Below are positions 4,781-60,930 of a stretch of DNA of 64,000 nt, piece after piece (position 1 is the first letter of the stretch; each line of letters begins with the position of its first letter). The notes under the pieces are model-generated. The model saw nothing but the letters and a program-made list of their open reading frames with translations, had not been told where the DNA came from and did not search any database. The DNA is from an uncultured Sphingomonadaceae bacterium (GTDB taxonomy: Bacteria > Pseudomonadota > Alphaproteobacteria > Sphingomonadales > Sphingomonadaceae): positions 1 through 64,000 of the forward strand of contig CANLUL010000005.1 of assembly GCA_947494305.1 (NCBI GenBank), read 5' to 3'. A program made the translations under genes and the position numbers.

Positions 4781-7339
4781 GTGCTGGTCCAAAAAGGTTT
4801 AAGCTGCGTGCTGATGATGGAACTCCGCAACTTTCAAAGCTGTTACTGGCGGCGCATGCTGGGCACTGGGGAACGGCTTTGTGCAATCCTCTATATGATG
4901 TTGGTATTTGGCCTTGCGCTTGTCAGCCAGCCGGCATTGGCACAGACTGAAGTGAAAAATGGCGAGTTGATAGATCGCAATTGGGATTATGCAAAAAATG
5001 ATCCGCTAGAACTTTCGGGCGAATGGCAAGTAATCTGGGGGAAACTTGTTTCGCCCGAGCATTTTGATGATCAGTATGAAGGCGATTTGTTCCGCATTCC
5101 ACAACGCTGGAACAACGTCGATCACCCACGAATGAACGGTGCTCACGGTGTTGCCACTTTTCGGGCTAAACTGGATTTGCCGAGATATGAAAGAGATCTT
5201 TCCTTCCATCAAATATCGCCGCATTCGGCATGGAAGCTATATGTCAATGGTATCCCCATTGGTGGTAACGGAACGGTTTCTGAGCAACCCGGCAATCACC
5301 GTTCACACTATACATCGCGAATTTTCCCTGCCTATCCCGGCAAAAGCGAATTGGTGCTGCAGGTGTCAAACTTTTCGCATGCTTATGGGGGTCCGGGTCA
5401 TCCTCCCACCATCTGGGATTCGCAGCAGCTTTTTCGAACGCTTGGATTTTTGTCGCTCTACTATGCCTTGGTACTTGGCATTCTTTTAGCGATCGGCATA
5501 TTTCATTTGATTTTCTATCTTGCAGATCGCAACCACCGGGAACAGGGACCGGTGCATTTGTGGTTCAGCCTGCTGTGTTTCATAATGGTTTTCCGCATTT
5601 CCGGCGTCATACCCTATTTCCATATCTATTTTCCCGAATCTGCATATTGGTCGGATTTGCGACTTCCTTATGCCAGTTTATTTGCGGCACCGGCCACCTA
5701 TATATTGTTTTTTCGATCTGCATTTTCCGGTTATTTTCCAGAACGACTGACGTTGGCGATAATCGGAATTAATGTGCTTTTCACAGTAACCATTCTGGTG
5801 ACGCCCGAGAGTTTTTTCACACATCTTCGTGATTTTTCGATTGCGATGAATGTTTTTGTGATCCTCTACAGCATGATTTTTACGGTCAAAGCGATGGTGC
5901 ACCAACAGCCGGGTGCAACAATTATAACGATTTCGAATATCATTTTTCTGGGGACCGCCATTAATGATGCGGTGATATATACCGACAATGGTACTGGGTT
6001 TGATCTTACTCCGTTCGGGATCTTGGTTCTGGGAATAGGTTATTCTTATGCGCTGCTTTTGCGACTGCAAACAACATTTGAAGTAGCGCGTGATACGTCG
6101 ATCGCGCTCGAGCATTTGAACTTGGATCTTGAGCAGCAGGTGCGCGATCGAACTTTGGCATTCAAATCGGCAGCGGCGAAAGCGGAAAACAGTGCGCATG
6201 ATCAAGCTAGGTTTATTGCCGCCGCCAGCCATGACCTGCGCCAACCCCTGCATGCGCTGGCAATGTTCAATTCGGCTCTACGCGCCAAGATTAAAAACTC
6301 GAAAGCCGCTAACTTGCTTGAAAAACAGGATGAGTCCATTCGCAACATGGGGGAATTGTTACAAGACACCTTAGATAGCGCGCGAGCAGAAACCAGTCAG
6401 AAAACGCCCGTTTGGATGCCACTGGAACTACAAAAAGTTGTGGCGAGCATTGGTAGTGGGTTTGAGATCCAGGCAGAGAAGCGCAAGCTAAGTTATGAGG
6501 AAAAGATCGCGCCTGGAGAGATCGTCACTGATGGGGCAATGTTACAACGCGTTCTCAGCAATCTGGTGGAGAATGCACTAAAGGCCGCGAAAGCTAGCAT
6601 CTCTATTAAGGCGGAACGTAAATCTTCAAGCTGGGTCATTGAGGTTGCAGACGACGGTAGCGGAATTGCCAAGGAAGACATTGGCAGGATCTTTGAATCC
6701 TATATCAGTCTGGACGATCACGATTCAAAAGACCATGGCGGGTACGGTTTAGGGCTTTATGTTGTCAAAAATTTCACCAAATTATTGGGTGGAACAGTGG
6801 CCGTGGACTCCACTCTTGGCGAGGGTACAAGGTTTGTCCTCACCTTTCCATTGGCTCCCGCTGGTTTTAGAACCGCACAAGACACTTCGGGTGATGTTGG
6901 AACCAGCATGCCTGCACCGGGAATGAAAATATTGGCGATTGATGATGAACCAGAAGTCCTCGTGGCAATGAGGGCCATGCTGGAAAACTGGGAATGTCAG
7001 ATCGAAACCGCAGAAGATGGTGAACAAGCCATAAGAATTATGAAAGCGGGGTTCCATCCAGATTTGGCTATTGTTGACTATCATTTATTTGGCGCCAGCG
7101 GTACTCAGACCATCGCCCAACTACGAGAATTGATGCCAAATTTGCGAGCTGTTATCCTGACCGGCGCAACGGAACCAGAAATTTTGACAGAAATTACCGA
7201 TCAGGGATTACCCTATTTGTCGAAACCGATAGATACCCGAATGCTGGGTGATTTTTTGTACAAGATCCAATCATCGACCGCCAGTAATCAAACAAGTGAT
7301 GCCTTTATGGCAAAGGTCGCTAGCGATGCTGGGGAATGA
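4781..7339 (+). CDS. hybrid sensor histidine kinase, 7TMR-DISM type
   Basis: A membrane sensor. A signal peptide (LCAILYMMLVFGLALVSQPALAQ) precedes a periplasmic carbohydrate-binding-like 7TMR-DISMED2 region (about residues 55-210), seven TM helices (about 215-430) and a short coiled coil. Then come a HisKA domain with phospho-acceptor His in AASHDLRQPLHAL, an HATPase_c domain (N box SNLVENALKAA, G boxes DDGSGIA and GGYGLGLYVV) and a C-terminal receiver domain (DDE cluster AIDDEPE, phospho-acceptor Asp in AIVDYHL, Lys in LSKPI). The start is uncertain; ATG at 4814 or 4856 is likelier than the most upstream codon because the signal peptide begins near 4856. Its 3' end overlaps the convergent response regulator by about 52 nt, so the two probably form a phosphorelay. 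Confidence 0.9.
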   Translation: MLVQKGLSCVLMMELRNFQSCYWRRMLGTGERLCAILYMMLVFGLALVSQPALAQTEVKNGELIDRNWDYAKNDPLELSGEWQVIWGKLVSPEHFDDQYEGDLFRIPQRWNNVDHPRMNGAHGVATFRAKLDLPRYERDLSFHQISPHSAWKLYVNGIPIGGNGTVSEQPGNHRSHYTSRIFPAYPGKSELVLQVSNFSHAYGGPGHPPTIWDSQQLFRTLGFLSLYYALVLGILLAIGIFHLIFYLADRNHREQGPVHLWFSLLCFIMVFRISGVIPYFHIYFPESAYWSDLRLPYASLFAAPATYILFFRSAFSGYFPERLTLAIIGINVLFTVTILVTPESFFTHLRDFSIAMNVFVILYSMIFTVKAMVHQQPGATIITISNIIFLGTAINDAVIYTDNGTGFDLTPFGILVLGIGYSYALLLRLQTTFEVARDTSIALEHLNLDLEQQVRDRTLAFKSAAAKAENSAHDQARFIAAASHDLRQPLHALAMFNSALRAKIKNSKAANLLEKQDESIRNMGELLQDTLDSARAETSQKTPVWMPLELQKVVASIGSGFEIQAEKRKLSYEEKIAPGEIVTDGAMLQRVLSNLVENALKAAKASISIKAERKSSSWVIEVADDGSGIAKEDIGRIFESYISLDDHDSKDHGGYGLGLYVVKNFTKLLGGTVAVDSTLGEGTRFVLTFPLAPAGFRTAQDTSGDVGTSMPAPGMKILAIDDEPEVLVAMRAMLENWECQIETAEDGEQAIRIMKAGFHPDLAIVDYHLFGASGTQTIAQLRELMPNLRAVILTGATEPEILTEITDQGLPYLSKPIDTRMLGDFLYKIQSSTASNQTSDAFMAKVASDAGE

Positions 7340-26110: not shown

Positions 26111-26308
26111 ATGGACACTCAGATGGCGGAGAATATCTCGATCAACGATGCGGTACGAACCTTCGGCATTGGGCGCACCAAGCTCTACGAGCTAATACGA
26201 AATGGCGATATCGAAGCGGTCAAATTGGGGCGGAGAACTTTGATCCGTACCGCAAGCGCCCGTGAGTTCATCGATAGCCTCCCTCGTGCTGGGAGCGTAC
26301 AATGCTGA
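26111..26308 (+). CDS. AlpA/excisionase-type HTH DNA-binding protein
   Basis: 65 residues with a MerR-like winged HTH of the excisionase/AlpA class: ISINDAVRTFGIGRTKLYELIRNGDIEAVKLGRRTLIRTASAREFIDSL. In P4-like elements such proteins activate the integrase or act as excision factors. GGAGA lies 7 nt before ATG 26111. Its stop codon overlaps the start of the primase gene (ATGCTGA at 26302-26308), so the two are translationally coupled. Confidence 0.88.
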   Translation: MDTQMAENISINDAVRTFGIGRTKLYELIRNGDIEAVKLGRRTLIRTASAREFIDSLPRAGSVQC

Positions 26309-28557
26309 GCCGCCATGCCAAATCAGTGATGGGCGAGCGCCTGAAATTGGCTGAGCAAGGAATTTACACCTTCCTCGCCCATGGCATAGATGACCTTCAA
26401 GAATGTGATTGTGATGTTAGTGGGTGCAAACGACCGGGAAAGCATCCGAGATTCCGAGGAAAAAAGCGCGGAGCGACAATCAACAAAGATGTCATAAAGC
26501 GCGAAAAGCGCCACGCGCACGCGAATGTTGCCTTGCATCCCGGTCTCTCCCGCCTAGTCATTCTGGACATCGATCCTCGCAATGGCGGATTGAAAACTAT
26601 GGAGCGGCTGGAACACAGACATGGTCCAATTGAATCATTCGTCATTGTGGATACCGGCGGCGGCGGTGAACACCGCTATTTTCGTGAAGAAGAGGGCGTG
26701 ACTTATCCGTCCAGTCTCGGACCTGGCGTAGATGTACTCAGCGGTTCCAAGTATCCCATTATCCCACCCAGCCGCCATCATTCAGGCGGCCAATACCGTT
26801 GGCGCGAAGGCTGTGATTTGATCGAGGGGGTAATGTTCCTCACCCTGTTTCCGAAAAAAGTTCTGATAAAGGAACAACCGTCAGCAGGACCGACAGAAAG
26901 CGCCGAACTGGCAGAAACTGAAACGGAGGTTTCCCGTCTGCGATCGGCTCTCGAGAGCATTCCAGCCGACTGCTCTCGAAACGAATGGCGCGACATACTC
27001 TATTCGATCAAATCGACCGGCTGGAACATCGCGGAGGAATTGGCTCGTGGCTGGAGCCAAACAGCGCCAGAGCTCTGGTCGCAAGAAGCATTCGACTCAA
27101 TTTGGCAAGACGCCAAACCAATACGCGAGGGTGGGCGGACCACCGGAAGTATATACTACCTTGCGAAACGCAATGGCTGGCTTGACCCATACGCTAAGAC
27201 ATACTCCGCTACATTGGGCGATATCGACAACGGCCAACGTTTTGCCGCGTCTAATCGTGGAAAGCTAATCTATGATCGAGCTAGCAAGACTTGGCGAGAA
27301 TATTGCAACGGTATCTGGAGACTATGTCAGACTGGACAGGAGGAAGTCGCGGCAAAAGCTGTGGCCGAAGAGAATCTAAGACAAGCTGGCGAAGACCTTT
27401 CAACAAACGCTAGCGATGCGAGCAAGGCTTCTTACATGCAAGCGCTGCGTGTTCACCGGTCTGCGGCAAGGATCACAGCATTGATCGATATGGCAAAAGC
27501 GGAATCGGGTATGAGTGTATCTGATCCCGCCGAGTTCGACCGCGATCCGCTAATGCTTGGAGTGGAAGGTGGTGCGGTCGACCTCCGAACAGGTGAATGG
27601 ATTGAACCATCTCCCACAAATATGATTAGCAAAAGCGTTGGCGCACGGTTTGACCAGGATGCTGATTGCCCACGTTGGAGAGAGTTCATTTCGGAGGTAT
27701 TCGCAAACGAGGGTGAAGAGAAATTTGTCCAAAGGTTTGCCGGTTACTCTCTCACTGGTTTGGTGGATGAAGAGGTTTTTCTGTTTATGCAGGGCTCCGG
27801 CGCAAACGGCAAAAGCGTTATGGCGAACGTACTATCTGCAGTTTTCGGCGAATACGCAGTAACTGTCGGGTCGGAGTTGTTAGCAGTAACAAAGAATGAG
27901 TCGGAAGCTAACCGGTATAAAGTTCGATTGTGCGGAGCACGTTTGGCGCTGGTTAATGAGGTAGGCCAGAATGACACTTTCAATGATCAACGCGTGAAGG
28001 AAGTCGTATCGCGCGAAGCTATCTCTGCCCGAATGCTCTACGGCGAGGCGTTCGATTATTTTCCTACTCACAAACTATGGGTGCGTGGCAATCATAGGCC
28101 AGCCATTCTTGATTCAGGAGACGGGATGTGGCGACGGGTGATATTGCTTCCCTTTTGTCGGCAGTTCAGCCCAAGCGAGCGAATACATGACATTGACCGT
28201 AAGTTGTTCAACGAGGAGGGGAGCGGCATACTAAATTGGTGCATCGAGGGATGCCTACAGTGGCAAAAGCAGGGACTTTCTCCACCAAGTTCGATAACGC
28301 GAGAAACTGCTCAGTATCGGGATGATACCGATGTTATTGGGGAGTGGCTCGAAACTGAATGTGAGCTTCGGTCTGATGCGCGATGCAGCACCCAGACGAT
28401 CTTCGCTTCATACCAAGATCATTGCCGCAAGATCGGCATGCATCCCAAGAGTCGCACCTCGTTTGTGCGGATGATAAAAACGAGGGGCTTTCGTCACCAA
28501 AAGAGCAATGGAAAGGCATACCTACTCGGAATCGATGTAGGCGCAAATGATCTTTGA
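26302..28557 (+). CDS. P4-type primase-helicase (Prim-Pol plus D5-like SF3 helicase)
   Basis: 751 residues. The N-terminal AEP/Prim-Pol domain (about 15-175) has the catalytic acidic motif VILDIDPRNGG and IIPPSRHHSGGQYRW. A linker with a PriCT-like region follows (LRSALESIPADCSRNEWRDILYSIKSTG). The C-terminal SF3 helicase of the phage D5 type has Walker A GSGANGKSVM, sensor/arginine region LALVNEVGQNDTFND and WVRGNHRPAILDSGDGMWRRVILLPF. This is the self-replication protein of satellite phages and integrative plasmids. An origin is expected nearby but I could not identify iterons. Confidence 0.92.
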   Translation: MLSRHAKSVMGERLKLAEQGIYTFLAHGIDDLQECDCDVSGCKRPGKHPRFRGKKRGATINKDVIKREKRHAHANVALHPGLSRLVILDIDPRNGGLKTMERLEHRHGPIESFVIVDTGGGGEHRYFREEEGVTYPSSLGPGVDVLSGSKYPIIPPSRHHSGGQYRWREGCDLIEGVMFLTLFPKKVLIKEQPSAGPTESAELAETETEVSRLRSALESIPADCSRNEWRDILYSIKSTGWNIAEELARGWSQTAPELWSQEAFDSIWQDAKPIREGGRTTGSIYYLAKRNGWLDPYAKTYSATLGDIDNGQRFAASNRGKLIYDRASKTWREYCNGIWRLCQTGQEEVAAKAVAEENLRQAGEDLSTNASDASKASYMQALRVHRSAARITALIDMAKAESGMSVSDPAEFDRDPLMLGVEGGAVDLRTGEWIEPSPTNMISKSVGARFDQDADCPRWREFISEVFANEGEEKFVQRFAGYSLTGLVDEEVFLFMQGSGANGKSVMANVLSAVFGEYAVTVGSELLAVTKNESEANRYKVRLCGARLALVNEVGQNDTFNDQRVKEVVSREAISARMLYGEAFDYFPTHKLWVRGNHRPAILDSGDGMWRRVILLPFCRQFSPSERIHDIDRKLFNEEGSGILNWCIEGCLQWQKQGLSPPSSITRETAQYRDDTDVIGEWLETECELRSDARCSTQTIFASYQDHCRKIGMHPKSRTSFVRMIKTRGFRHQKSNGKAYLLGIDVGANDL

Positions 28558-50778: not shown

Positions 50779-52101
50779 CTAAATCGCGCTGCTAAACCCG
50801 CTGCTCACGCCAGCGCGATAGGGATCAAACACCGCTGCGATGGAGCGCAAATAGGGCGTGGCATCGTCGCTACAGGTAATGTGGCCGTTGTTCCGTTTGA
50901 GCAGACCGAGTTCTTCGAACGGCGCTAGTGCTCCGGCATAGCCTTTCTTTCCTCCAAGGCACCCGATATCCGCTTGGCCGCGGCACAAAATGTCTTCGAT
51001 AATCTGTCCATGAACTGTGTCGTCCGGTGTCCGCGCCACACCCAGCTTGGCGGATAGTCGACCATCACGGACGGCCTCTCGCCATGCACCGACATTCTTG
51101 TCATTTTGCAGGATCTGATCCGGGAACATGCTGATCGCGGTGGCGCCCATACCGAGAAGGTAAGGGCTAGGGTCGTGGGTATATCCCTGAAAATTGCGAG
51201 AGACTTGTCCGGCGCGATAGGCGGCAGTCATAGGATCATCGGGCAGTGCGAAATGATCAAAGCCAATCGCTTGATAGCCGGCCTGCACCAGCGCCTGATA
51301 CCCCAATTGTGACATCGCAAACCTTTGTGCCTGATTGGCCATGATGCTGGTGTCCATCCGCCGTTGCCGTGCGATCTTTTGGGGCAAGTGAGCATAGCCG
51401 AACAACGCAATGCGATCTGGTTTCAGGCCAATTGCAGATTTCAGGCTGTCACTCAAATCTGTACCTGTCTGTCCGGGCAGGCCGTACATCATGTCGAAAT
51501 TGATCGATTGTACACCGTTGCTGCGTAGCTGCTCCATCGCCTCGACAATCTTCTCATAGGGTTGCACGCGGCCAATCACTTGCTGCACTGTGGGGGAGAA
51601 GGTTTGGATGCCCATGCTGGCGTGCGTGACGCCGGTTTCGCTCAGTGTCGCAGCCCATGTCGCGTTGAAATCACGCGGGTCCAGTTCAACCGAAATTTCG
51701 CTATCGGTGATGTTGAAGCCGTTCTTTAGCGCTTTGATCAAACGGACAAATTCATGAGGAGCAATTGCATTTGGACTGCCTCCGCCAAAGGCAACACGCT
51801 TCACTTGATGTTGGGAAGTGATCAACTCCCCCATTAGTCGAATTTCGCCAAGCAGCGCATCGATATAGGCTTGTAGACGTTTTGCTTTGTTGGCCCGCCC
51901 TGTGTTGCAGGCGCAATAATAACATATCTCGTTGCAGTAAGGAATGTGCAGGTAAAGCGAGATATCCGCATGGGGCGGGATCGCCGCGAGTGCGCTTTCC
52001 AGCACATTCTCCTTTTGCAAGGGATGAAATTCAGCCGCCGTCGGATAGCTTGTGTAACGCGGAACCGGGCGTTCGAGTAGATCTGGATGATATGGCCACA
52101 T
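50779..52101 (-). CDS. hemN: oxygen-independent coproporphyrinogen III oxidase
   Basis: 440 residues. Radical-SAM enzyme that decarboxylates coproporphyrinogen III to protoporphyrinogen IX without oxygen, for haem synthesis. The cluster motif CNEICYYCAC, the SAM-binding GGGSPNAI, SVELDPRDFNATW, GIQTFSPTVQQVIGR and GYAHLPQKIARQRRMD are the usual HemN features. Length is normal. An FNR-type box lies 36-49 nt upstream, fitting oxygen-limited induction; this also suits the multihaem cytochrome operon further on. Confidence 0.95.
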   Translation of the reverse strand: MWPYHPDLLERPVPRYTSYPTAAEFHPLQKENVLESALAAIPPHADISLYLHIPYCNEICYYCACNTGRANKAKRLQAYIDALLGEIRLMGELITSQHQVKRVAFGGGSPNAIAPHEFVRLIKALKNGFNITDSEISVELDPRDFNATWAATLSETGVTHASMGIQTFSPTVQQVIGRVQPYEKIVEAMEQLRSNGVQSINFDMMYGLPGQTGTDLSDSLKSAIGLKPDRIALFGYAHLPQKIARQRRMDTSIMANQAQRFAMSQLGYQALVQAGYQAIGFDHFALPDDPMTAAYRAGQVSRNFQGYTHDPSPYLLGMGATAISMFPDQILQNDKNVGAWREAVRDGRLSAKLGVARTPDDTVHGQIIEDILCRGQADIGCLGGKKGYAGALAPFEELGLLKRNNGHITCSDDATPYLRSIAAVFDPYRAGVSSGFSSAI

Positions 52102-53628: not shown

Positions 53629-54600
53629 TTACCCGCCGACCCCCAAAGCTGCGCCGGCCTCCCGTATCCGTTTCGCCTGAACGCCATCGTTCTTAAACGC
53701 CTCCAAGCCGTCGGCCAAAGCCCTTTGCGCTTTTACGGTTTGACCTAATTGGTTGCGGCTGCGCATCAGCATGATCCAGCCATCGGCATCATTGGGGTCT
53801 GCTTGCAGGCGCTTGTCGAGGCCTTCTACCATATTGGCGATCATCGCTTCTTGTTGTCCTACTGGCATCGCAGCGGCTTCTTTCATCTGCTGTGATGAAG
53901 GGCCAGGAATGGCTGCGGTGGCGACCGCAGCACCGTCAGTGGTCATCCCGCCGGTTGGCGCAGCGGGGGTCGCTTTGGCCAGACGGTCGGCAACGTCTAT
54001 GCCTTCTTTCTCTGCGACCTGCCCGATTACACGGCGTACATCCTGCGCATAGGGTGCGTCGGCTGGCGTATCTTCCAGCAGCGCGAACCAATCTTCAATC
54101 GCACCTTTATGATCGCCGGAAATGTCTTTTTGCACAGCCAGAAAATAGCGTGCGCGTGGATCATCCTTGTCGATCGCCAACGCCTTTTTGAACGCATCGC
54201 CGGCATCTGCGGGTACTTGCTGACCATCGCTGGACATAACCAATGCCTCGCCGAGCATCGACCAATATTCGGCATTGTCTGGATCGAGTGTTGTTGCGCG
54301 TTTCATTGCGGTGGCCGATTCGGCGAATTTTTGGGTTTCAAAATAGCTCCACCCCAACATTCGCCAGCTTTCTGCATCGTCCGGATTCTCTTGCAATTTC
54401 TTTTCGAGACCAGAGATCACTTCATCGACGCTGGGTGCTTGTTCTTCGTTTTCCGCGATGGTTGCCGGCTCGTTTTCCGATGACCCGGAGGTGCTTCGAT
54501 AGACTTGAATGCCGACTGCCCCAATTGCTAGTAAAGCCGCTAAAATCAGGGCGATACGGCCAATATTAGGTGCAGTATTTTCGCTATTATTATCGGTCAT
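53629..54600 (-). CDS. ccmI-like: TPR protein of cytochrome c maturation (CcmI/CycH-like)
   Basis: 323 residues. One N-terminal TM (IALILAALLAIGAVGIQVY) is followed by TPR repeats (PDDAESWRMLGWSYFETQKFAESATAMKRATTLDPDNAEYWSMLGEALV). The AKATPAAPTGG linker and the C-terminal PNDADGWIMLMRSRNQLGQ repeat match the CcmI/CycH protein of system I cytochrome c biogenesis, which presents apocytochromes for haem attachment. Divergent from an operon with a decahaem cytochrome, which needs exactly this machinery. The other ccm genes are not in the window. Confidence 0.82.
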   Translation of the reverse strand: MTDNNSENTAPNIGRIALILAALLAIGAVGIQVYRSTSGSSENEPATIAENEEQAPSVDEVISGLEKKLQENPDDAESWRMLGWSYFETQKFAESATAMKRATTLDPDNAEYWSMLGEALVMSSDGQQVPADAGDAFKKALAIDKDDPRARYFLAVQKDISGDHKGAIEDWFALLEDTPADAPYAQDVRRVIGQVAEKEGIDVADRLAKATPAAPTGGMTTDGAAVATAAIPGPSSQQMKEAAAMPVGQQEAMIANMVEGLDKRLQADPNDADGWIMLMRSRNQLGQTVKAQRALADGLEAFKNDGVQAKRIREAGAALGVGG

Positions 54601-54877: not shown

Positions 54878-57328
54878 GTGTCGGACAAATATCGTGTTGT
54901 CATTATAGGGTCTGGCCCGGCAGGCATGAGCGCCGCTGGTCGTGCTGCTCAACTGAAACTCAAGCATGTTCTGTTGGAAAAAACAGATCATCTCTCCGAT
55001 ACAATCTTCAAATATCAAAAGGGCAAGCATGTCATGGCGACGCCGAGCCAGCTGGTGCTGCGTTCGGACATGGACTTTGATGCCGGAAAAAGAGAAGCCA
55101 TTCTTGGCACATGGGACGAGCAGACAGCCGGTCACGGGGTGAATGTTCAATATAATGCTGAGCCTGTGAAGATTGAAGGCAATGAGGGCGACTTCACAAT
55201 CACACTGAAAGATGGCGGAACCATAAAGGCTGAGACCATCGTCATGGCGATCGGCACCCAGGGTAACCCGAACTTGATGCGGTGCCCCGGTGGCGACAAC
55301 AAACTGGTGCAATACCAGCTCGACGATCCCGGTGAATATTATGATGAGCATATAACGGTAATCGGTTCTGGTGATGCTGGAATTGAAAACGCATTGGGCC
55401 TGGCCGCCGATAACGCCCAAAATAATGTTGTGACCATACTCAATCGCTCTGCAGAATTTGCGCGCGCCAAAAAGGCCAATGTCAAATTATTGATGGAAGC
55501 GAAAGAAAACGGCAAAGTTGATGTGCGCAATGAAACAACACCGGCCGAAGTAAAGGATGGCGAGCTGGTTCTTGAAACCCGTGATGGTCAGGAGACGATC
55601 AAATGCGACCGGATCATTGCCCGTATGGGTTCTGCGCCGCCGCGGAAATTTGTCGAAGAGTGCGGGATTGAGTTTACCAGTGAAGATCGTGAGGCTTACC
55701 CAAAGCTTTCCCCAGCTTTTGAGAGTACCAAGAAGGGTATTTATGTCATCGGTGCTCTCGCCGGTTATCCGCTGATCAAACACTGCATGAATCAGGGATA
55801 TGATGTCATTGAGTTTATCAATGGCAATACCGACCTCAAACCGGCCGATGAACCTATACTCGAAGAGAAATTCAAAGACTTGCCGGGTGGAAAATCGGTT
55901 GACGAATGGCTCGAATTTTTCCGCGCCAATATTTCAATCTTGAATGAACTCTCTCCGCTGCAAATGCGGGAATTCATGCTCGACAGCGAACCGCGCCGTT
56001 ATGGGCGTGGCGATGTGGTGTTTGAGAAAAACGAACCGGGTAGTTCGCTTTTTGCTATTGCTCAAGGATCGGTTGCTGTGGAGATTGATCCCAATGATCC
56101 GTCCATCACTGTGCCGATTGAAGAGGGTTCTATTTTCGGTGAAGTCGGTCTGATTTCGGGCCGCCGTCGCGGTGCCACGATTAATGCAGCAGAGGATTTG
56201 ATTGTCGTAGAAATATCGCGGACTGCTGCCTTGAAACTGCAGGCGTCTGTTCCAGCTGCGAAGCGGGCGATTACAAATATTTCGACAGAACGGCAGTTGC
56301 TGCAAATGTTTGGCTCGGGCCTCACCAAAGAAGATATTGCCGAAGTTGTTGAAACCAGCGAGATTGTGAATGTTCGCGCCGGTGAAGTGATTATCGAGGA
56401 AGGCTCCGAAGGTAACGATATTTATGTGATCCGTGTCGGATCCATGGTTGTGGAAAAGGAGATTGGCGGCAAACCAGTGTTCCTCTCCTATCTACCAGCT
56501 GGGTCATATGTCGGAGAGATGACCCTTATCGCTGGTGGTTATCGAACGGCCACTGTGAAAGCCGCAATTAAATCTGAAGTGATTAAGATTAATGGCGATG
56601 CTTTTAAGAAGGTGCTCGACCAACATCCTGATTTGATGCGCAAAGCCAAGAAGGAAATGGCATCACGTCAAGATGTGAATGCCTTTATCGAGGCGAAAAA
56701 GGACAGTTTCTCCGGCGTGGTTGACATGTACTCGGGGGTCGCCAACTTCCTGATCGATAATGGTATTGGTGAAGCAACCGATGTGTTGTTGATTGACGAG
56801 AATCTATGCGTCGGCTGCGACAACTGTGAAAAAGCTTGTGCGGACAGCCATGAAGGACTGTCGCGTTTGGACCGGGAAGCCGGTCGCACCTACGCCCATC
56901 TGCACGTACCGACCAGTTGCCGGCACTGCGAACATCCGCACTGCATGTCAGATTGCCCGCCCGATGCCATTCATCGCGGCCCAGATGGCGAAGTCTTTAT
57001 CGACGATACCTGCATCGGTTGCGGTAACTGTCAGCGTTATTGCCCTTATGGCGTGATCCGTATGGACAAGGTGCCGCCCAAAAAACCAAGCCTGTTGAGC
57101 TGGTTGTTCTTTGGTTCTGGTCCTGGCCCAGGGGAACCCGACAAATCATGGGTTGCGGACAATACCGATCCTTCCGTTGAAAAAGCCAAAAAGGCGATCA
57201 AGTGCGATATGTGTGCGGGCATAGCCGGAGGGCCTGCTTGTGTGCGTGCCTGTCCAACCGGTGCAGCAATCCGTGTCGCGCCAGAAGAATTCCTCACCGT
57301 CGCAAAACTGGAAAGTGAGGACGCCTGA
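54878..57328 (+). CDS. flavoprotein / double cNMP-binding / four [4Fe-4S] cluster fusion
   Basis: About 816 residues from GTG 54878 (AAGGAGGGGG upstream); a GTG at 54842 adds 12. Residues ~1-330 are a TrxB/YpdA-like FAD-NAD(P)H domain with GSGPAGMSAAGRAAQ and VIGSGDAGIENALG, but without the CxxC redox pair. Two cyclic-nucleotide-binding domains follow; both retain phosphate-cassette features (FGEVGLISGRRRGAT and VGEMTLIAGGYRTAT). The C-terminal ~200 residues hold four DmsB/HycB-like cysteine sets (CVGCDNCEKAC, CRHCEHPHCMSDC, CIGCGNCQRYC, CDMCAGIAGGPACVRAC), 16 Cys in all. It should take electrons from NAD(P)H through FAD to Fe-S clusters under cyclic-nucleotide control. The next gene starts within its stop codon (TGATG). 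Confidence 0.9.
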   Translation: MSDKYRVVIIGSGPAGMSAAGRAAQLKLKHVLLEKTDHLSDTIFKYQKGKHVMATPSQLVLRSDMDFDAGKREAILGTWDEQTAGHGVNVQYNAEPVKIEGNEGDFTITLKDGGTIKAETIVMAIGTQGNPNLMRCPGGDNKLVQYQLDDPGEYYDEHITVIGSGDAGIENALGLAADNAQNNVVTILNRSAEFARAKKANVKLLMEAKENGKVDVRNETTPAEVKDGELVLETRDGQETIKCDRIIARMGSAPPRKFVEECGIEFTSEDREAYPKLSPAFESTKKGIYVIGALAGYPLIKHCMNQGYDVIEFINGNTDLKPADEPILEEKFKDLPGGKSVDEWLEFFRANISILNELSPLQMREFMLDSEPRRYGRGDVVFEKNEPGSSLFAIAQGSVAVEIDPNDPSITVPIEEGSIFGEVGLISGRRRGATINAAEDLIVVEISRTAALKLQASVPAAKRAITNISTERQLLQMFGSGLTKEDIAEVVETSEIVNVRAGEVIIEEGSEGNDIYVIRVGSMVVEKEIGGKPVFLSYLPAGSYVGEMTLIAGGYRTATVKAAIKSEVIKINGDAFKKVLDQHPDLMRKAKKEMASRQDVNAFIEAKKDSFSGVVDMYSGVANFLIDNGIGEATDVLLIDENLCVGCDNCEKACADSHEGLSRLDREAGRTYAHLHVPTSCRHCEHPHCMSDCPPDAIHRGPDGEVFIDDTCIGCGNCQRYCPYGVIRMDKVPPKKPSLLSWLFFGSGPGPGEPDKSWVADNTDPSVEKAKKAIKCDMCAGIAGGPACVRACPTGAAIRVAPEEFLTVAKLESEDA

Positions 57329-58209
57329 TGGCCAGCAACGCAGTAGCCTCACAAACCGGCCGCAAAAAAGTTGCGATGCATGACGGTTTTTTGAAACATG
57401 CTGGCTTTCGCTGGCTGAAAATTTCGTCTGGAATAATGTTAGTCTGCATTATCAGTTACATTTTCATCGACGTGTCACCGCGTCACAATGGTGGGAGCTG
57501 GTATGGCTATACATTGGGCACGATCGGTGCGCTTCTGATCCTTTGGTTGACCATGCTGGGTGTCCGCAAGCGGGCCATGACTTCTGGTAGCTGGTCCCTA
57601 AAAGCGTGGACATCGGCACATATCTATTTGGGCCTCAGTCTCATTGTTATCGGAACGCTCCATACTGGTTTTCAGCTCGGCTGGAACATTCACACCGCCG
57701 CCTATGTCTTTATGATGATCGTAATCATTTCCGGGATTTTCGGGATTTATTTCTATGCGACTATTCCTGACAAATTATCCGATAATCGCGATGAAATGAC
57801 CGAGACCGAGATGTTGGAAAACCTGCGTTCACTCGACCGGCAATTGCATGAATCAGCACAGCCACTGTCGGCGGAGCATGCAACATTGGTGCTGCAATCA
57901 TTGGAGCAAGACCCCTTTGGCGGCGGCTTTATGCGGAGGATTTCGGGCCGATATCCAGATTGTGCAACCCGGATTGCACAAGCCGATCTGCGAAGAGAGC
58001 GTGCTTATCAGCCAAAAATGGGTGGTGATGATCCGCTCGATAAAGTCGATGCATTGCTTGAGAAAAAGGAAGCTACGCTCGCCCGTGTTCGTCGTCACCT
58101 GCGATTGAAGGCGATGCTGCAAGTCTGGCTGTTCATCCATGTGCCGATGACTTTTGCCCTGATTGGGTCGCTTAGCGCCCATATCATCAGCGTATTTTTC
58201 TACTGGTAG
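57328..58209 (+). CDS. five-helix membrane protein, putative b-type cytochrome
   Basis: 293 residues. TM helices: FRWLKISSGIMLVCIISYIF; YGYTLGTIGALLILWLTML; SAHIYLGLSLIVIGTLHTGF; HTAAYVFMMIVIISGIFGIYF; and, after a ~100-residue cytoplasmic segment with acidic/basic helices, QVWLFIHVPMTFALIGSLSAHIISVFFYW. His residues recur in the membrane (SAHIYLG, GTLHTGF, NIHTAAY, FIHVPM, SAHIIS) in cytochrome b-like positions, so haem binding is likely. In context it would accept electrons from the Fe-S flavoprotein and hand them to the multihaem cytochrome. No named family recognised. Confidence 0.78.
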   Translation: MASNAVASQTGRKKVAMHDGFLKHAGFRWLKISSGIMLVCIISYIFIDVSPRHNGGSWYGYTLGTIGALLILWLTMLGVRKRAMTSGSWSLKAWTSAHIYLGLSLIVIGTLHTGFQLGWNIHTAAYVFMMIVIISGIFGIYFYATIPDKLSDNRDEMTETEMLENLRSLDRQLHESAQPLSAEHATLVLQSLEQDPFGGGFMRRISGRYPDCATRIAQADLRRERAYQPKMGGDDPLDKVDALLEKKEATLARVRRHLRLKAMLQVWLFIHVPMTFALIGSLSAHIISVFFYW

Positions 58210-58224
58210 GATGGAGATAGTAAT

Positions 58225-60030
58225 ATGACTTTCATTGTCCGCCAAATTGCAACCACCGCCGATGGCCGTGAAATTGTCCGTTCCAATCCATTTGATTCCG
58301 ATCAGATCGGTATCGGTCGGAGTACCGAAAATGCCATTCACCTGCCCGATTTGGCGGTCAATCCGGATCATGCCACGATTAGCAAACGTGAAGATGGCCA
58401 TATTGTTGTTGAAAGCACATCTGGTCAAAATTTTACGCTCGATGGTAAGCAGCGTGTTTCTGTTACGATTGATCCAGCCGACGGCGCTGAACTGGGTTTT
58501 GGTGGCCATGTCATTGTCGTTGGCGAAGAAGAAGGCCAGATTCTCTTCACCGTCAAACGGGTCGAAGCGCTTTCTGATTCTGCTGAAGATCGCAGCGAAT
58601 CAACGCTCTATACATTGGAAGGACTGCTCCCGGGAAAGCGCATGAGCGCCTGGGGTTTTGTTGCGCTGGTTCTCGCGGCTTTTTTAATTTGGCCGATATA
58701 TACATGGGCAACCTATCGCGGCGTAGAGGAACGACCTGATCAATTCCATGCCGATACGATGTGGTCATCCGGTGCCCTCAGTCAGGCGCATCACAGCCTT
58801 GAAGGTGACTGTCAGGCCTGCCACGTCGACGCTTTTGTAACGGTTACAGACAAAACCTGTCTAACTTGTCACGAAGATGATGCGCATGATCATGCCAAAC
58901 CAAATCGCCTGCTAACGGCGCGCGGCGGACCGGAGGGTTTTGAGAAAATTGGCGCCGCCTTTGCCTCAGCCTTTAACAAACCGCCCGGCAGGTGTGTCGA
59001 ATGTCACACCGAGCATGAAGGCGCAGGTGCTATGGAACCTACCGCACAGAAATTCTGTGCCGATTGCCACGAGGGAATGGACGGACGTTTGACCGATACG
59101 AAACTAGAAAATGCGTCCGATTTCGGTCTTGAGCACCCGCAGTTCCGTCCTGCTGTGTTGCAGAAGCCTGGCGGCAAGAACCCGCCGCGGAAGCGTATTT
59201 CTCTGGACGAGAAACCGACCGAGTACAATGGTCTGAAATTCCCACACGACATGCATCTGTCAAAAACCGGCGGCGTTGCACAGATGGGCAGGCGTCTCTC
59301 GGCCAAATATGACTTCGGACCATCTCTGGTTTGTAAAGATTGTCATACACCCGATCCCAAAGGGGTGCGGTTTGAACCGGTTGATATGCAGGAAGACTGC
59401 AGCATGTGTCACAGCCTTGCTTTTGATGAGATCGGCGGCACCATTCGCACACTTCGTCATGGCGAACCGGATATGGTTCGGGCAGATTTACGCGCTTATT
59501 ACCGTTCAACGCGGCCAACCCGTCCGATCAATCTGGGTGGTATGAAACGGCGACGTCCTGGCGGCAATAATGATGTGCGCGTGGCCAGCGATTATGCCCG
59601 CGCGGTTCAATTTCGGCCAAGCAGAGCCAATCTGGCCATCAGCGAAGTCTTTTCTCGCGGTGGTGCCTGTTTTGACTGCCATGGTGTGACCCCGCCAACA
59701 GCAAGAGGCCGCGTGGACTTTGGCATTAAGCCGGTCACTCAAACGGACCGCTATATGCATAAAGGCTGGTTCAGCCACGAAGCGCATAACGATGAGGATT
59801 GCACTAGCTGCCATACAGCCGACACATCAAAAGATGCGCGTGATCTGTTATTGCCTGGTATCAAGACCTGCCGGGAATGCCATGGTGGTGAGTTTCAGGC
59901 CACATCAGATGTACCCTCGACATGTGCCATGTGTCATGACTATCATGCCGATGAAGGTGCACCTTGGTTGATGAAGGAGCAGCAAAAGGATAAACGTAAG
60001 AAACCGGACAAGAAAATTGCCCAGCGGTAG
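58225..60030 (+). CDS. FHA domain - TM - decahaem cytochrome c
   Basis: 601 residues. Residues ~25-95 are an FHA phosphothreonine-binding domain (IGIGRSTENAIHLPDLAVNPDHATISKRE). After a linker comes one TM (WGFVALVLAAFLIWPIYTWATY, about 140-165), so the FHA domain is cytoplasmic and the rest periplasmic. The rest carries ten CXXCH haem sites (CQACH, CLTCH, CVECH, CADCH, CKDCH, CSMCH, CFDCH, CTSCH, CRECH, CAMCH), as in cytochrome c3/c7-type NapC-Nrf-like multihaem proteins. The union of a signalling reader and a decahaem chain is unusual. It follows the membrane protein gene by 15 nt. Confidence 0.9.
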   Translation: MTFIVRQIATTADGREIVRSNPFDSDQIGIGRSTENAIHLPDLAVNPDHATISKREDGHIVVESTSGQNFTLDGKQRVSVTIDPADGAELGFGGHVIVVGEEEGQILFTVKRVEALSDSAEDRSESTLYTLEGLLPGKRMSAWGFVALVLAAFLIWPIYTWATYRGVEERPDQFHADTMWSSGALSQAHHSLEGDCQACHVDAFVTVTDKTCLTCHEDDAHDHAKPNRLLTARGGPEGFEKIGAAFASAFNKPPGRCVECHTEHEGAGAMEPTAQKFCADCHEGMDGRLTDTKLENASDFGLEHPQFRPAVLQKPGGKNPPRKRISLDEKPTEYNGLKFPHDMHLSKTGGVAQMGRRLSAKYDFGPSLVCKDCHTPDPKGVRFEPVDMQEDCSMCHSLAFDEIGGTIRTLRHGEPDMVRADLRAYYRSTRPTRPINLGGMKRRRPGGNNDVRVASDYARAVQFRPSRANLAISEVFSRGGACFDCHGVTPPTARGRVDFGIKPVTQTDRYMHKGWFSHEAHNDEDCTSCHTADTSKDARDLLLPGIKTCRECHGGEFQATSDVPSTCAMCHDYHADEGAPWLMKEQQKDKRKKPDKKIAQR

Positions 60031-60081
60031 ACGGAACAAAAAAGTCTCTGTTCCCATTGGTCAAGAGGGAAGGAGCCGCCA

Positions 60082-60930
60082 ATGTTAATGGCGCAGGTTA
60101 CCGATATTCATCTGGGTTTCGATCCGGATAATCCGGCGGAATTTAACCGCAAACGCCTCGATCAGGCGCTGAAGGCGCTGAGTGAGATGACGCCGCAGCC
60201 CGATATGTTGCTGGCCACCGGTGACCTCGTGGATCGCGGGGATCAGGAAAGTTACCAGCGGCTCGAAGATGCTTTTTCAGACCTTCCGTTTCCGGTTCAT
60301 ATGTGCCTAGGCAATCATGATCTTCGCGCACCGTTCATGAAACAGTTTCCCGAAACACCGACGGTCGATGGTTTCGTGCAATATGAAATTGACGATGGTC
60401 CGCTGCGTCTGCTGTTTCTCGATACACTCGAAGAAGGCCGTCACGGCGGCGCGTTTTGCGAGAAGCGGGCGGCTTGGCTTGAAGAACGTTTGACCGAAAA
60501 GCAGGAAAAACCAACCATATTGGTTCTGCATCACCCCCCTGTAGAAAGCGGGATTGATTGGATGAACACCCACCCGGATGAACCATGGGTGGCGCGATTG
60601 GCCGATACAGTGGCAGGGCATTATCAAGTAAAGGGTATGATAACCGGTCATTTGCACCGTAACATTTCGACCTGGTGGCGCAATATCAGCCTTTCTATCT
60701 GTGCATCGACGGCACCACAAGTTGCCCTGGACCTCAATCCGATTGATCCGGAAAACCCCGATGGCCGTAACATGATTGTTGCCGATCCGCCTGCCATTGC
60801 TCTGCATTGGTGGAACGGCCGGCAACTGGTCAGCCATTTTGAATCCGCCGATGACCATGTCATGCTGGCGCGCTATGATGAGAATCTGCAGCCACTTGTG
60901 CGCGCGTTGTTGGCCGAGCGCCCGGACTAA
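60082..60930 (+). CDS. cpdA-like: CpdA-like 3',5'-cyclic nucleotide phosphodiesterase
   Basis: 282 residues of the class III metallophosphoesterase type. Metal-binding motifs in order: QVTDIHLG (D.H), LLATGDLVDRGDQESY (GD), CLGNHDLRAPF (GNHD), LHHPPVESG (H) and ITGHLHRNIS (GHxH). GGAAGGAG lies 6 nt before ATG 60082. Such enzymes hydrolyse cAMP. Its position directly after an operon whose first protein has two cyclic-nucleotide domains suggests local control of the signal. A weak stem GGAACA/TGTTCC (60032-60053) lies between the two genes. Confidence 0.88.
   Translation: MLMAQVTDIHLGFDPDNPAEFNRKRLDQALKALSEMTPQPDMLLATGDLVDRGDQESYQRLEDAFSDLPFPVHMCLGNHDLRAPFMKQFPETPTVDGFVQYEIDDGPLRLLFLDTLEEGRHGGAFCEKRAAWLEERLTEKQEKPTILVLHHPPVESGIDWMNTHPDEPWVARLADTVAGHYQVKGMITGHLHRNISTWWRNISLSICASTAPQVALDLNPIDPENPDGRNMIVADPPAIALHWWNGRQLVSHFESADDHVMLARYDENLQPLVRALLAERPD

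Follow-up and report, generated by a model that had tools for sequence, protein, structure and literature searches.

A flavo/Fe-S, membrane and decahaem gene set as the candidate inner-membrane half of a trans-envelope electron conduit in sphingomonads and other proteobacteria

Domain architectures of a four-gene locus in a sphingomonad

The subject of this analysis is a run of four consecutive genes, termed A, B, C and D below, which profile and open reading frame analysis places on the + strand at positions 54878-60930 of a 64,000-nt stretch of DNA (the window) from an uncultured Sphingomonadaceae bacterium (GCA_947494305.1, contig CANLUL010000005.1, positions 1-64,000, forward strand). An original prediction made from this DNA alone had described the four same-strand genes, their domain order, 16 Cys, ten CXXCH motifs and tight spacing, all of which profile, motif and coordinate analyses bear out. 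We consider it rather likely that A, B and C constitute the inner-membrane half of a trans-envelope electron conduit.

Gene A (54878..57328, +; 816 amino acids (aa), GTG start) combines a YpdA-like NAD(P)H flavin reductase, two cyclic nucleotide monophosphate (cNMP)-binding domains and a four-[4Fe-4S] module, in the order delineated by the Pyr_redox, cNMP_binding and 4Fe-4S models. The flavoprotein part is recognized by TIGR04018 (YpdA; E=9.8e-36) with 123 bits, under the family cut-off of 340, and displays N189 and R190 after the second GxGxxA of A, a pattern that we take to resemble that of NADPH users. The first cNMP-binding domain, with the conserved residues G421-E422 and R431, spans 56000..56257 (+; approximate limits, set around its cassette) and the second, with G546-E547 and R556, 56366..56626 (+). 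The Fe-S module (residues 644-792; 56807..57253, +) holds 16 of the 20 Cys of the protein and its matches include the DMSO/selenate reductase B, HydN and NrfC families, with PF13247 at E=4.2e-11. As hydropathy detects no hydrophobic segment in A, it is predicted to be cytoplasmic.

Gene B (57328..58209, +; 293 aa) encodes a membrane protein of the PCC4 'IMP' family and has one base in common with A, its start being the last base of the A stop codon. Gene C (58225..60030, +; 601 aa) begins 15 bases after B and unites an FHA-like domain (58312..58500, +; profile match with E=1.6e-4), a single transmembrane (TM) helix at residues 140-158 by hydropathy, and a ten-haem domain. The latter is matched by cytochrome c7/c3 models and its ten CXXCH motifs (58810..59937, +) compare with a maximum of one in 2000 shuffles. 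The FHA domain would thereby face the cytoplasm and the ten haems the periplasm. Gene D (60082..60930, +), which starts 51 bases after C, encodes an SpdA/CpdA-like metallophosphoesterase by profile matches: the best NCBIfam model is rhizobial SpdA (142 bits vs a cut-off of 400), with CpdA at 93 bits vs a cut-off of 225. It is probably a cyclic-nucleotide phosphodiesterase.

Conservation of the predicted cofactor ligands

Once short or duplicate sequences were dropped, 100 of 100 homologs of A, 101 of 102 of B and 98 of 99 of C were retained for alignment. All 16 Fe-S Cys of A are invariant across its 100 sequences, as are H98, H112, H122, H271 and H285 of B across its 101. Two WX3HX13H motifs, located at 94 and 267 in the window protein, occur in 100/101 B homologs, while SGXXG (SGIFG at 135 in the window) occurs in 92/101. 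The paired motifs, i.e., H98/H112 and H271/H285, conform to a di-haem b signature, making B a probable b-haem relay. Hydropathy yields four clear TM segments in B; its AlphaFold2 (AF2) model is helical (predicted local distance difference test, pLDDT, 79.5), with five long helices, of which the third and fifth bear the His pairs. PF01794, the ferric reductase/NADPH oxidase membrane domain, was not matched by B, the single match being PF01292 at E=0.012. In C, the Cys and His columns of the ten haem motifs are invariant (n=98; one motif is spaced CX4CH in two copies) and ten further His are conserved at 99-100%, which would be enough for ten bis-His haems. The invariance of the Fe-S Cys of A, the five His of B and the haem-motif columns of C argues that the gene set is no chance assembly.

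Gene neighborhoods and phyletic distribution of the A-B-C unit

We surveyed an order sample of 147 genomes, a class sample of 190 and a phylum sample of 299. C is present in 17/190 class-sample and 9/299 phylum-sample genomes. Throughout the 17 class-sample holders B adjoins C, and A adjoins both in 15. Among named genomes, at least 574 stretches encode relatives of A, the best 80 of which belong, to judge by their titles, to sphingomonads and relatives or unclassified bins. A joint examination of 103 sources yielded A in 100, B in 102, C in 99, D in 77 and a TPR gene in 83, and the gap between A and B was at most 14 bases in 78/100 pairs. In two genomes of the genus g223 (G216 and G328), outside the window's class, A and B are fused in a single reading frame of 1118 and 1123 aa that has the Fe-S part along with two WX3HX13H motifs. 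Twelve Sphingobium plasmid records also carry the genes. Synteny, A-B fusion and haem-ligand conservation together support the originally predicted single electron path from cytoplasm to periplasm.

The CpdA-like gene next door is indeed present as D, but it is not a constant neighbor: it lies near C in 74/82 sphingomonad-type loci vs 2/19 loci of the class and phylum samples. A closed unit of four genes is rejected on this count and by the location of the outer half elsewhere in the window's genome.

Some neighborhoods contain additional genes. Glutamate dehydrogenase is encoded near A-B-C in 19/112 loci by raw count (e.g., L187:1030-2394, L129:15805-17160 and L134:11280-12650); in L187 it is directly upstream of A and a link to NADPH is possible. 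In the same G707 locus, the interval between A and B (L187:4834-17690) encodes a cadherin/Ig-repeat protein of 2251 aa, a FecR-like and a TPR-like protein, both assigned by similarity to genes of L189, and a CHASE2 cyclase.

A candidate outer-membrane half encoded elsewhere in the genome

The original prediction missed the outer-membrane half of the system, which the window's genome encodes on another contig than A-B-C: a decahaem-LVIVD cytochrome (C1:221238-225350) with a β-barrel and an HbpS-like lipoprotein beside it, and a four-haem C554-like protein beside the outer set (L120:17576-18982), the last being 38% identical to the four-haem protein beside A-B-C in G060. In some relatives these components lie close to the inner genes. 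In 45/82 sphingomonad-type loci (an open reading frame count, which loses genes to overlapping frames) the surroundings of D include a protein of ~1,360 aa with as many as ten CXXCH; LVIVD repeats are evident in its Sphingobium copy, after which come a ~615-aa protein and one that is HbpS-like. On one strand, the order A-B-C-HbpS-barrel-decahaem recurs in several distant families of the class and in the class of G329, which is probably the Gammaproteobacteria.

The decahaem-LVIVD protein is strongly conserved: identity to the Sphingobium copy, per matched piece, is 68-77% in the order, 61-75% in the class and 58-69% in the class of G329, and 16 His besides those of the motifs are conserved in the 52 of 57 copies kept after those of <=1150 aa were dropped. 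A sequence search against the PDB gave one marginal match (E=0.01). The ~615-aa protein has neither a Pfam match nor a PDB relative by sequence; it is modelled with 18 strands, all 50 PDB fold matches listed are outer-membrane barrels, with AlgE first, and the C-terminal residue is Y or F in 39/39 copies of >550 aa. Among HbpS-like copies whose starts can be read, those of sphingomonads and G329 have a lipobox and several others a plain signal peptide.

In the order sample, A, B and the decahaem-LVIVD cytochrome are each found in 25/147 genomes, and these are the identical 25, notwithstanding that in 10/25 the inner and outer loci are on different contigs or >100 kb apart and that the genera g3, g169, g171, g172 and g311 include both holders and non-holders of A. 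In the class sample, all 12 genomes with the decahaem-LVIVD cytochrome (12/190) are among the 17 with C. In the class of G329 (229 genomes), A is present in 12 and the decahaem-LVIVD cytochrome in eight, all of them A holders. That inner and outer halves co-occur exactly even where unlinked furnishes a testable parts list.

A second outer module emerges among C holders without the decahaem-LVIVD cytochrome: G052, G060, G105 and G120 have a five-haem protein, which in the latter three lies beside a different barrel, whereas G025 has an HbpS-like gene at a contig end. One of two outer modules is thus found in 16/17 class-sample C holders and part of one in G025, while G160 has both the decahaem-LVIVD and the five-haem protein. 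In all, the five-haem protein occurs in 13 genomes, eight of which lack a C match; a query with the G060 copy gave no match in the window's genome (G000) at E<=1e-20. The window and G060 barrels show no sequence similarity to each other, and the decahaem and five-haem proteins none beyond short stretches mostly around haem motifs. The co-occurrence pattern suggests that one inner module serves more than one kind of outer module and does not have to go with iron oxidation.

Cyclic nucleotides and the FHA domain as potential controls

Glu and Arg are phosphate-binding cassette residues of cAMP-type cNMP-binding domains. In A, the conservation of E422, R431, E547 and R556 is at least 97% (n=100), and the Gly-Glu plus Arg cassette is kept in both domains. 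Homologs of two CHASE2 cyclases (domain models confirmed the query proteins, from L188 and L134) occur in 12/112 loci around the system, amounting to 11 distinct places as L187 and L188 overlap. In the order sample, CHASE2 is present in 25/25 A-positive vs 20/122 A-negative genomes. It is encoded <=30 kb from A or the decahaem-LVIVD cytochrome in 17/25 vs about 1.5 expected, a contrast whose significance is overstated by the relatedness of the genomes, by a limit set after the coordinates were seen and by an expectation that presumes 3.2-Mb genomes. From 19 linked stretches fetched, ten proteins from ten genomes were scanned, and 10/10 have a cyclase domain; that of G530 is just past 30 kb. 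The linked CHASE2 protein of G145, outside these ten, is EAL-like by its C terminus. In G431, a D homolog (39% identical to D) and a CHASE2 cyclase are side by side between C and the decahaem-LVIVD cytochrome. With the cassette Glu and Arg conserved and CHASE2 class III cyclases co-occurring with the system, often linked, cyclic-nucleotide control of the conduit is supported by inference.

The second control proposed at the outset, by phosphothreonine, did not fare as well. Phosphothreonine-binding FHA domains have recognition loops with conserved Arg, Ser and Asn. In the FHA domain of C, 'GR' is kept in 98/98 copies, but position 46 (Ser) is mostly E, N, T or D and position 73 (Asn) is D in 63/98 and N in 22/98. 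As the Ser and Asn positions are not kept, phosphothreonine gating is not supported, and the domain more probably serves for docking than as a phosphothreonine switch. A PP2C phosphatase near the system in 4/112 loci (L077, L190, L191 and L192), accompanied in two of the four by a double-FHA protein, is suggestive only; domain models were run on L192 alone of these loci.

The window's genome further encodes at C1:241000-253500 (L230:1-8697, L211:672-4501) a cluster of a CHASE2 cyclase, a CHAT protein, a ShlB-type transporter and a very large protein without a Pfam match, ~25 kb from the decahaem-LVIVD gene.

Relationship to known systems

The initial label 'undescribed' was too strong, for the inner half is listed in the putative PCC4 (He et al. 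2017, PMC5566968), put forward as a hypothesis in iron oxidisers. As laid out in the main text of that paper, PCC4 comprises a barrel, four-, five- and ten-haem cytochromes, a membrane protein and 'other redox-active proteins'; its electrons were proposed to flow inward, as far as quinone. The membrane protein is described there as an inner-membrane protein of ~300 aa with five TM helices, two WX3HX13H motifs and SGXXG, preceded in subgroup II by a PF13247 Fe-S gene (PMC5566968). A-B-C fits the inner part of PCC4 so described: window B has both WX3HX13H motifs and SGIFG, A (PF13247) is directly upstream of it, and C has ten CXXCH motifs and is set beside PCC4 by haem count. On another contig the genome adds a barrel and a four-haem cytochrome. 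The five helices reported compare with four by hydropathy and five in AF2 (the third of low confidence) in window B. The window's genome differs in having, instead of the five-haem protein, the decahaem-LVIVD cytochrome and HbpS-like protein, and its barrel shows no sequence similarity to that of the PCC4-like G060, the copy used for comparison. A complete PCC4-like set is found in G060, G105 and G687.

The main text of PMC5566968 lacks the words 'cyclic', 'FHA' and 'forkhead' and uses 'flavin' four times, in none of its PCC4 sections (15-17). Here, a PCC4-like inner half is paired with a different outer half and second-messenger genes; the parts list concerns a system proposed in 2017. Our literature searches found neither a characterised member of the A-B-C system nor a publication about LVIVD multihaem proteins. 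A 'Forkhead-associated protein' with ten CXXCH is tabulated for 27/87 iron-oxidising Gallionellaceae (PMC10734462) and, to go by this table entry rather than by sequence comparison, is possibly C-like. The flavoprotein part of A resembles the YpdA bacillithiol disulfide reductase (TIGR04018), from which A departs by its added cNMP and Fe-S domains and a score under the cut-off.

The membrane domain of ferric reductases and NADPH oxidases draws its electrons from NAD(P)H and FAD on the cytoplasmic side. B resembles this domain (PF01794) in its HX13H pairs for two probable b haems, but here there is a separate input protein with Fe-S and cNMP domains, an output to multihaem cytochromes and no PF01794 match. 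The PCC4 membrane protein has been compared with the same domain, including two b haems and HX13H on TM3 and TM5 (PMC5566968). Similarly, the Mtr/Mto/Pio systems, as presented there, share with the current one an inner-membrane donor, periplasmic multihaem proteins and an outer-membrane barrel with a decahaem protein (PMC5566968). In contrast to these, the barrel here has no Pfam match, C scores 15 bits with the DmsE-type decahaem model (cut-off 192), and the entry is an NAD(P)H-type flavo/Fe-S protein rather than one of the CymA type.

A proposed mechanism and the direction of electron flow

From the gene set, its synteny, the ligand conservation and its presence, within one order, in exactly the genomes that have an outer-membrane set, we infer the electron steps, direction and substrate as follows, the chain from NAD(P)H to the outer module being the most economical interpretation. 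A would oxidise NAD(P)H in the cytoplasm and pass single electrons via FAD and four [4Fe-4S] clusters to B, which could relay them across the membrane through two b haems, akin to ferric reductases and NADPH oxidases. C would accept them on ten bis-His haems and hand them to the tetrahaem cytochrome, and thence they may reach the decahaem-LVIVD cytochrome in or at the outer-membrane β-barrel, with its HbpS-like lipoprotein. Cyclic nucleotide on A, made by class III cyclases and perhaps removed by D, would probably time the flow. The NADPH oxidase/ferric reductase precedent, along with redox and membrane potential, makes outward flow to a surface acceptor the more likely direction. We tentatively entertain a more specific possibility, namely second-messenger-gated, NADPH-driven electron export by a 'split NADPH oxidase': a reductase opened by cyclic nucleotide from a CHASE2 cyclase, whose sensor would face outward, would feed ten, four and then ten haems up to the surface, with a standard inner module serving at least two unrelated outer-membrane modules. 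If the conduit reading holds in general, ordinary-looking sphingomonads and other proteobacteria carry a full NAD(P)H-to-surface electron path, maybe switched by a second messenger.

Several observations weigh against a gated outward conduit or its individual parts. For the inner half, A is not adjacent to B-C in G120 and G178, and a 13-kb block separates it from B in one G707 locus. No PDB relative of B was found by sequence, and by fold none of its 267 PDB matches reaches E<=0.001 (best E 0.073); its AF2 model is of low confidence at the third helix, and hydropathy gives four clear segments. For the outer half, the barrel was modelled at low confidence (pLDDT 53.5), and 4/12 A holders in the class of G329 (G329, G627, G687 and G805) are without the decahaem-LVIVD cytochrome. 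As for control, the nearest named relative of D is a 2',3'-cNMP enzyme, and all A holders of the order sample belong to one family, within which CHASE2 is present in 25/25 of them vs 19/39 listed A-negative members. The cyclase nearest the decahaem-LVIVD gene in the window's genome belongs to a cluster for ShlB-type secretion and CHAT proteins and may function there instead. A scan of the TPR-A intergenic regions for CRP or FNR boxes, equivocal in outcome, matched at least 8/10 CRP positions in 23/77 regions vs ~7% of shuffles, with many of the genomes from one clade. Finally, He et al. 2017 proposed the opposite, inward direction for PCC4 (PMC5566968).

This inward alternative would have an extracellular donor such as Fe(II) or Mn(II) give up electrons at the surface, from where they travel through the same chain until they reach quinones or, with an energy input, NAD(P)+. 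It draws on the likeness of A-B-C to the inner part of PCC4 from iron oxidisers and on the tabulated Gallionellaceae cluster. Quinone reduction would, however, leave the large NAD(P)H-type flavoprotein/Fe-S module of A superfluous. Reduction of NAD(P)+ by Fe(II)-level donors is, for its part, thermodynamically uphill, and the holders include sphingomonads, which we take to be aerobic heterotrophs. We regard an inward conduit as unlikely.

Comparably doubtful is a scheme in which the chain supplies a reductase rather than exporting electrons, powering a reduction at the LVIVD cytochrome or the HbpS-like protein, such as ferric or haem iron reduction in the service of uptake, or oxidant removal. 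An HbpS-like lipoprotein and a large decahaem-LVIVD protein, with identities of 58-77% across samples and its 16 conserved extra His, look more enzyme-like than a bare wire; yet other genomes swap in a different multihaem outer set and another barrel. It is very improbable that these genes are mere neighbors without a common pathway, brought together by horizontal transfer of an island, for, despite the Sphingobium plasmid records and the patchy distribution (25/147), co-occurrence is exact in the 10/25 genomes with unlinked loci and within genera mixing holders and non-holders, gene order and strand recur between classes and A and B are fused in one genus. We retain the outward conduit as the preferred reading.

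Other features of the window

A TPR protein of the CcmH/CycH type (53629..54600, -) is encoded divergently from A and is a frequent neighbor in sphingomonads; it is a possible helper of cytochrome maturation. In G431, genes for CcmF, CcmH and a CcmH/CycH-type TPR protein are directly upstream of A, also divergent (L134:1683-5982), and suggest that the sphingomonad TPR gene likewise has a role in cytochrome c maturation. The oxygen-independent coproporphyrinogen III oxidase HemN (50779-52101, -; TIGR00538, above cut-off), ~3 kb from A, fits a demand for haem at low oxygen. Farther away, the window encodes a hybrid histidine kinase/response regulator (4781-7339, +), for which the best model is NahK/ErcS-like, under its cut-off, and a protein with a P4-family phage/plasmid primase C-terminal domain (26302-28557, +; TIGR01613), which points to a possible integrated element.

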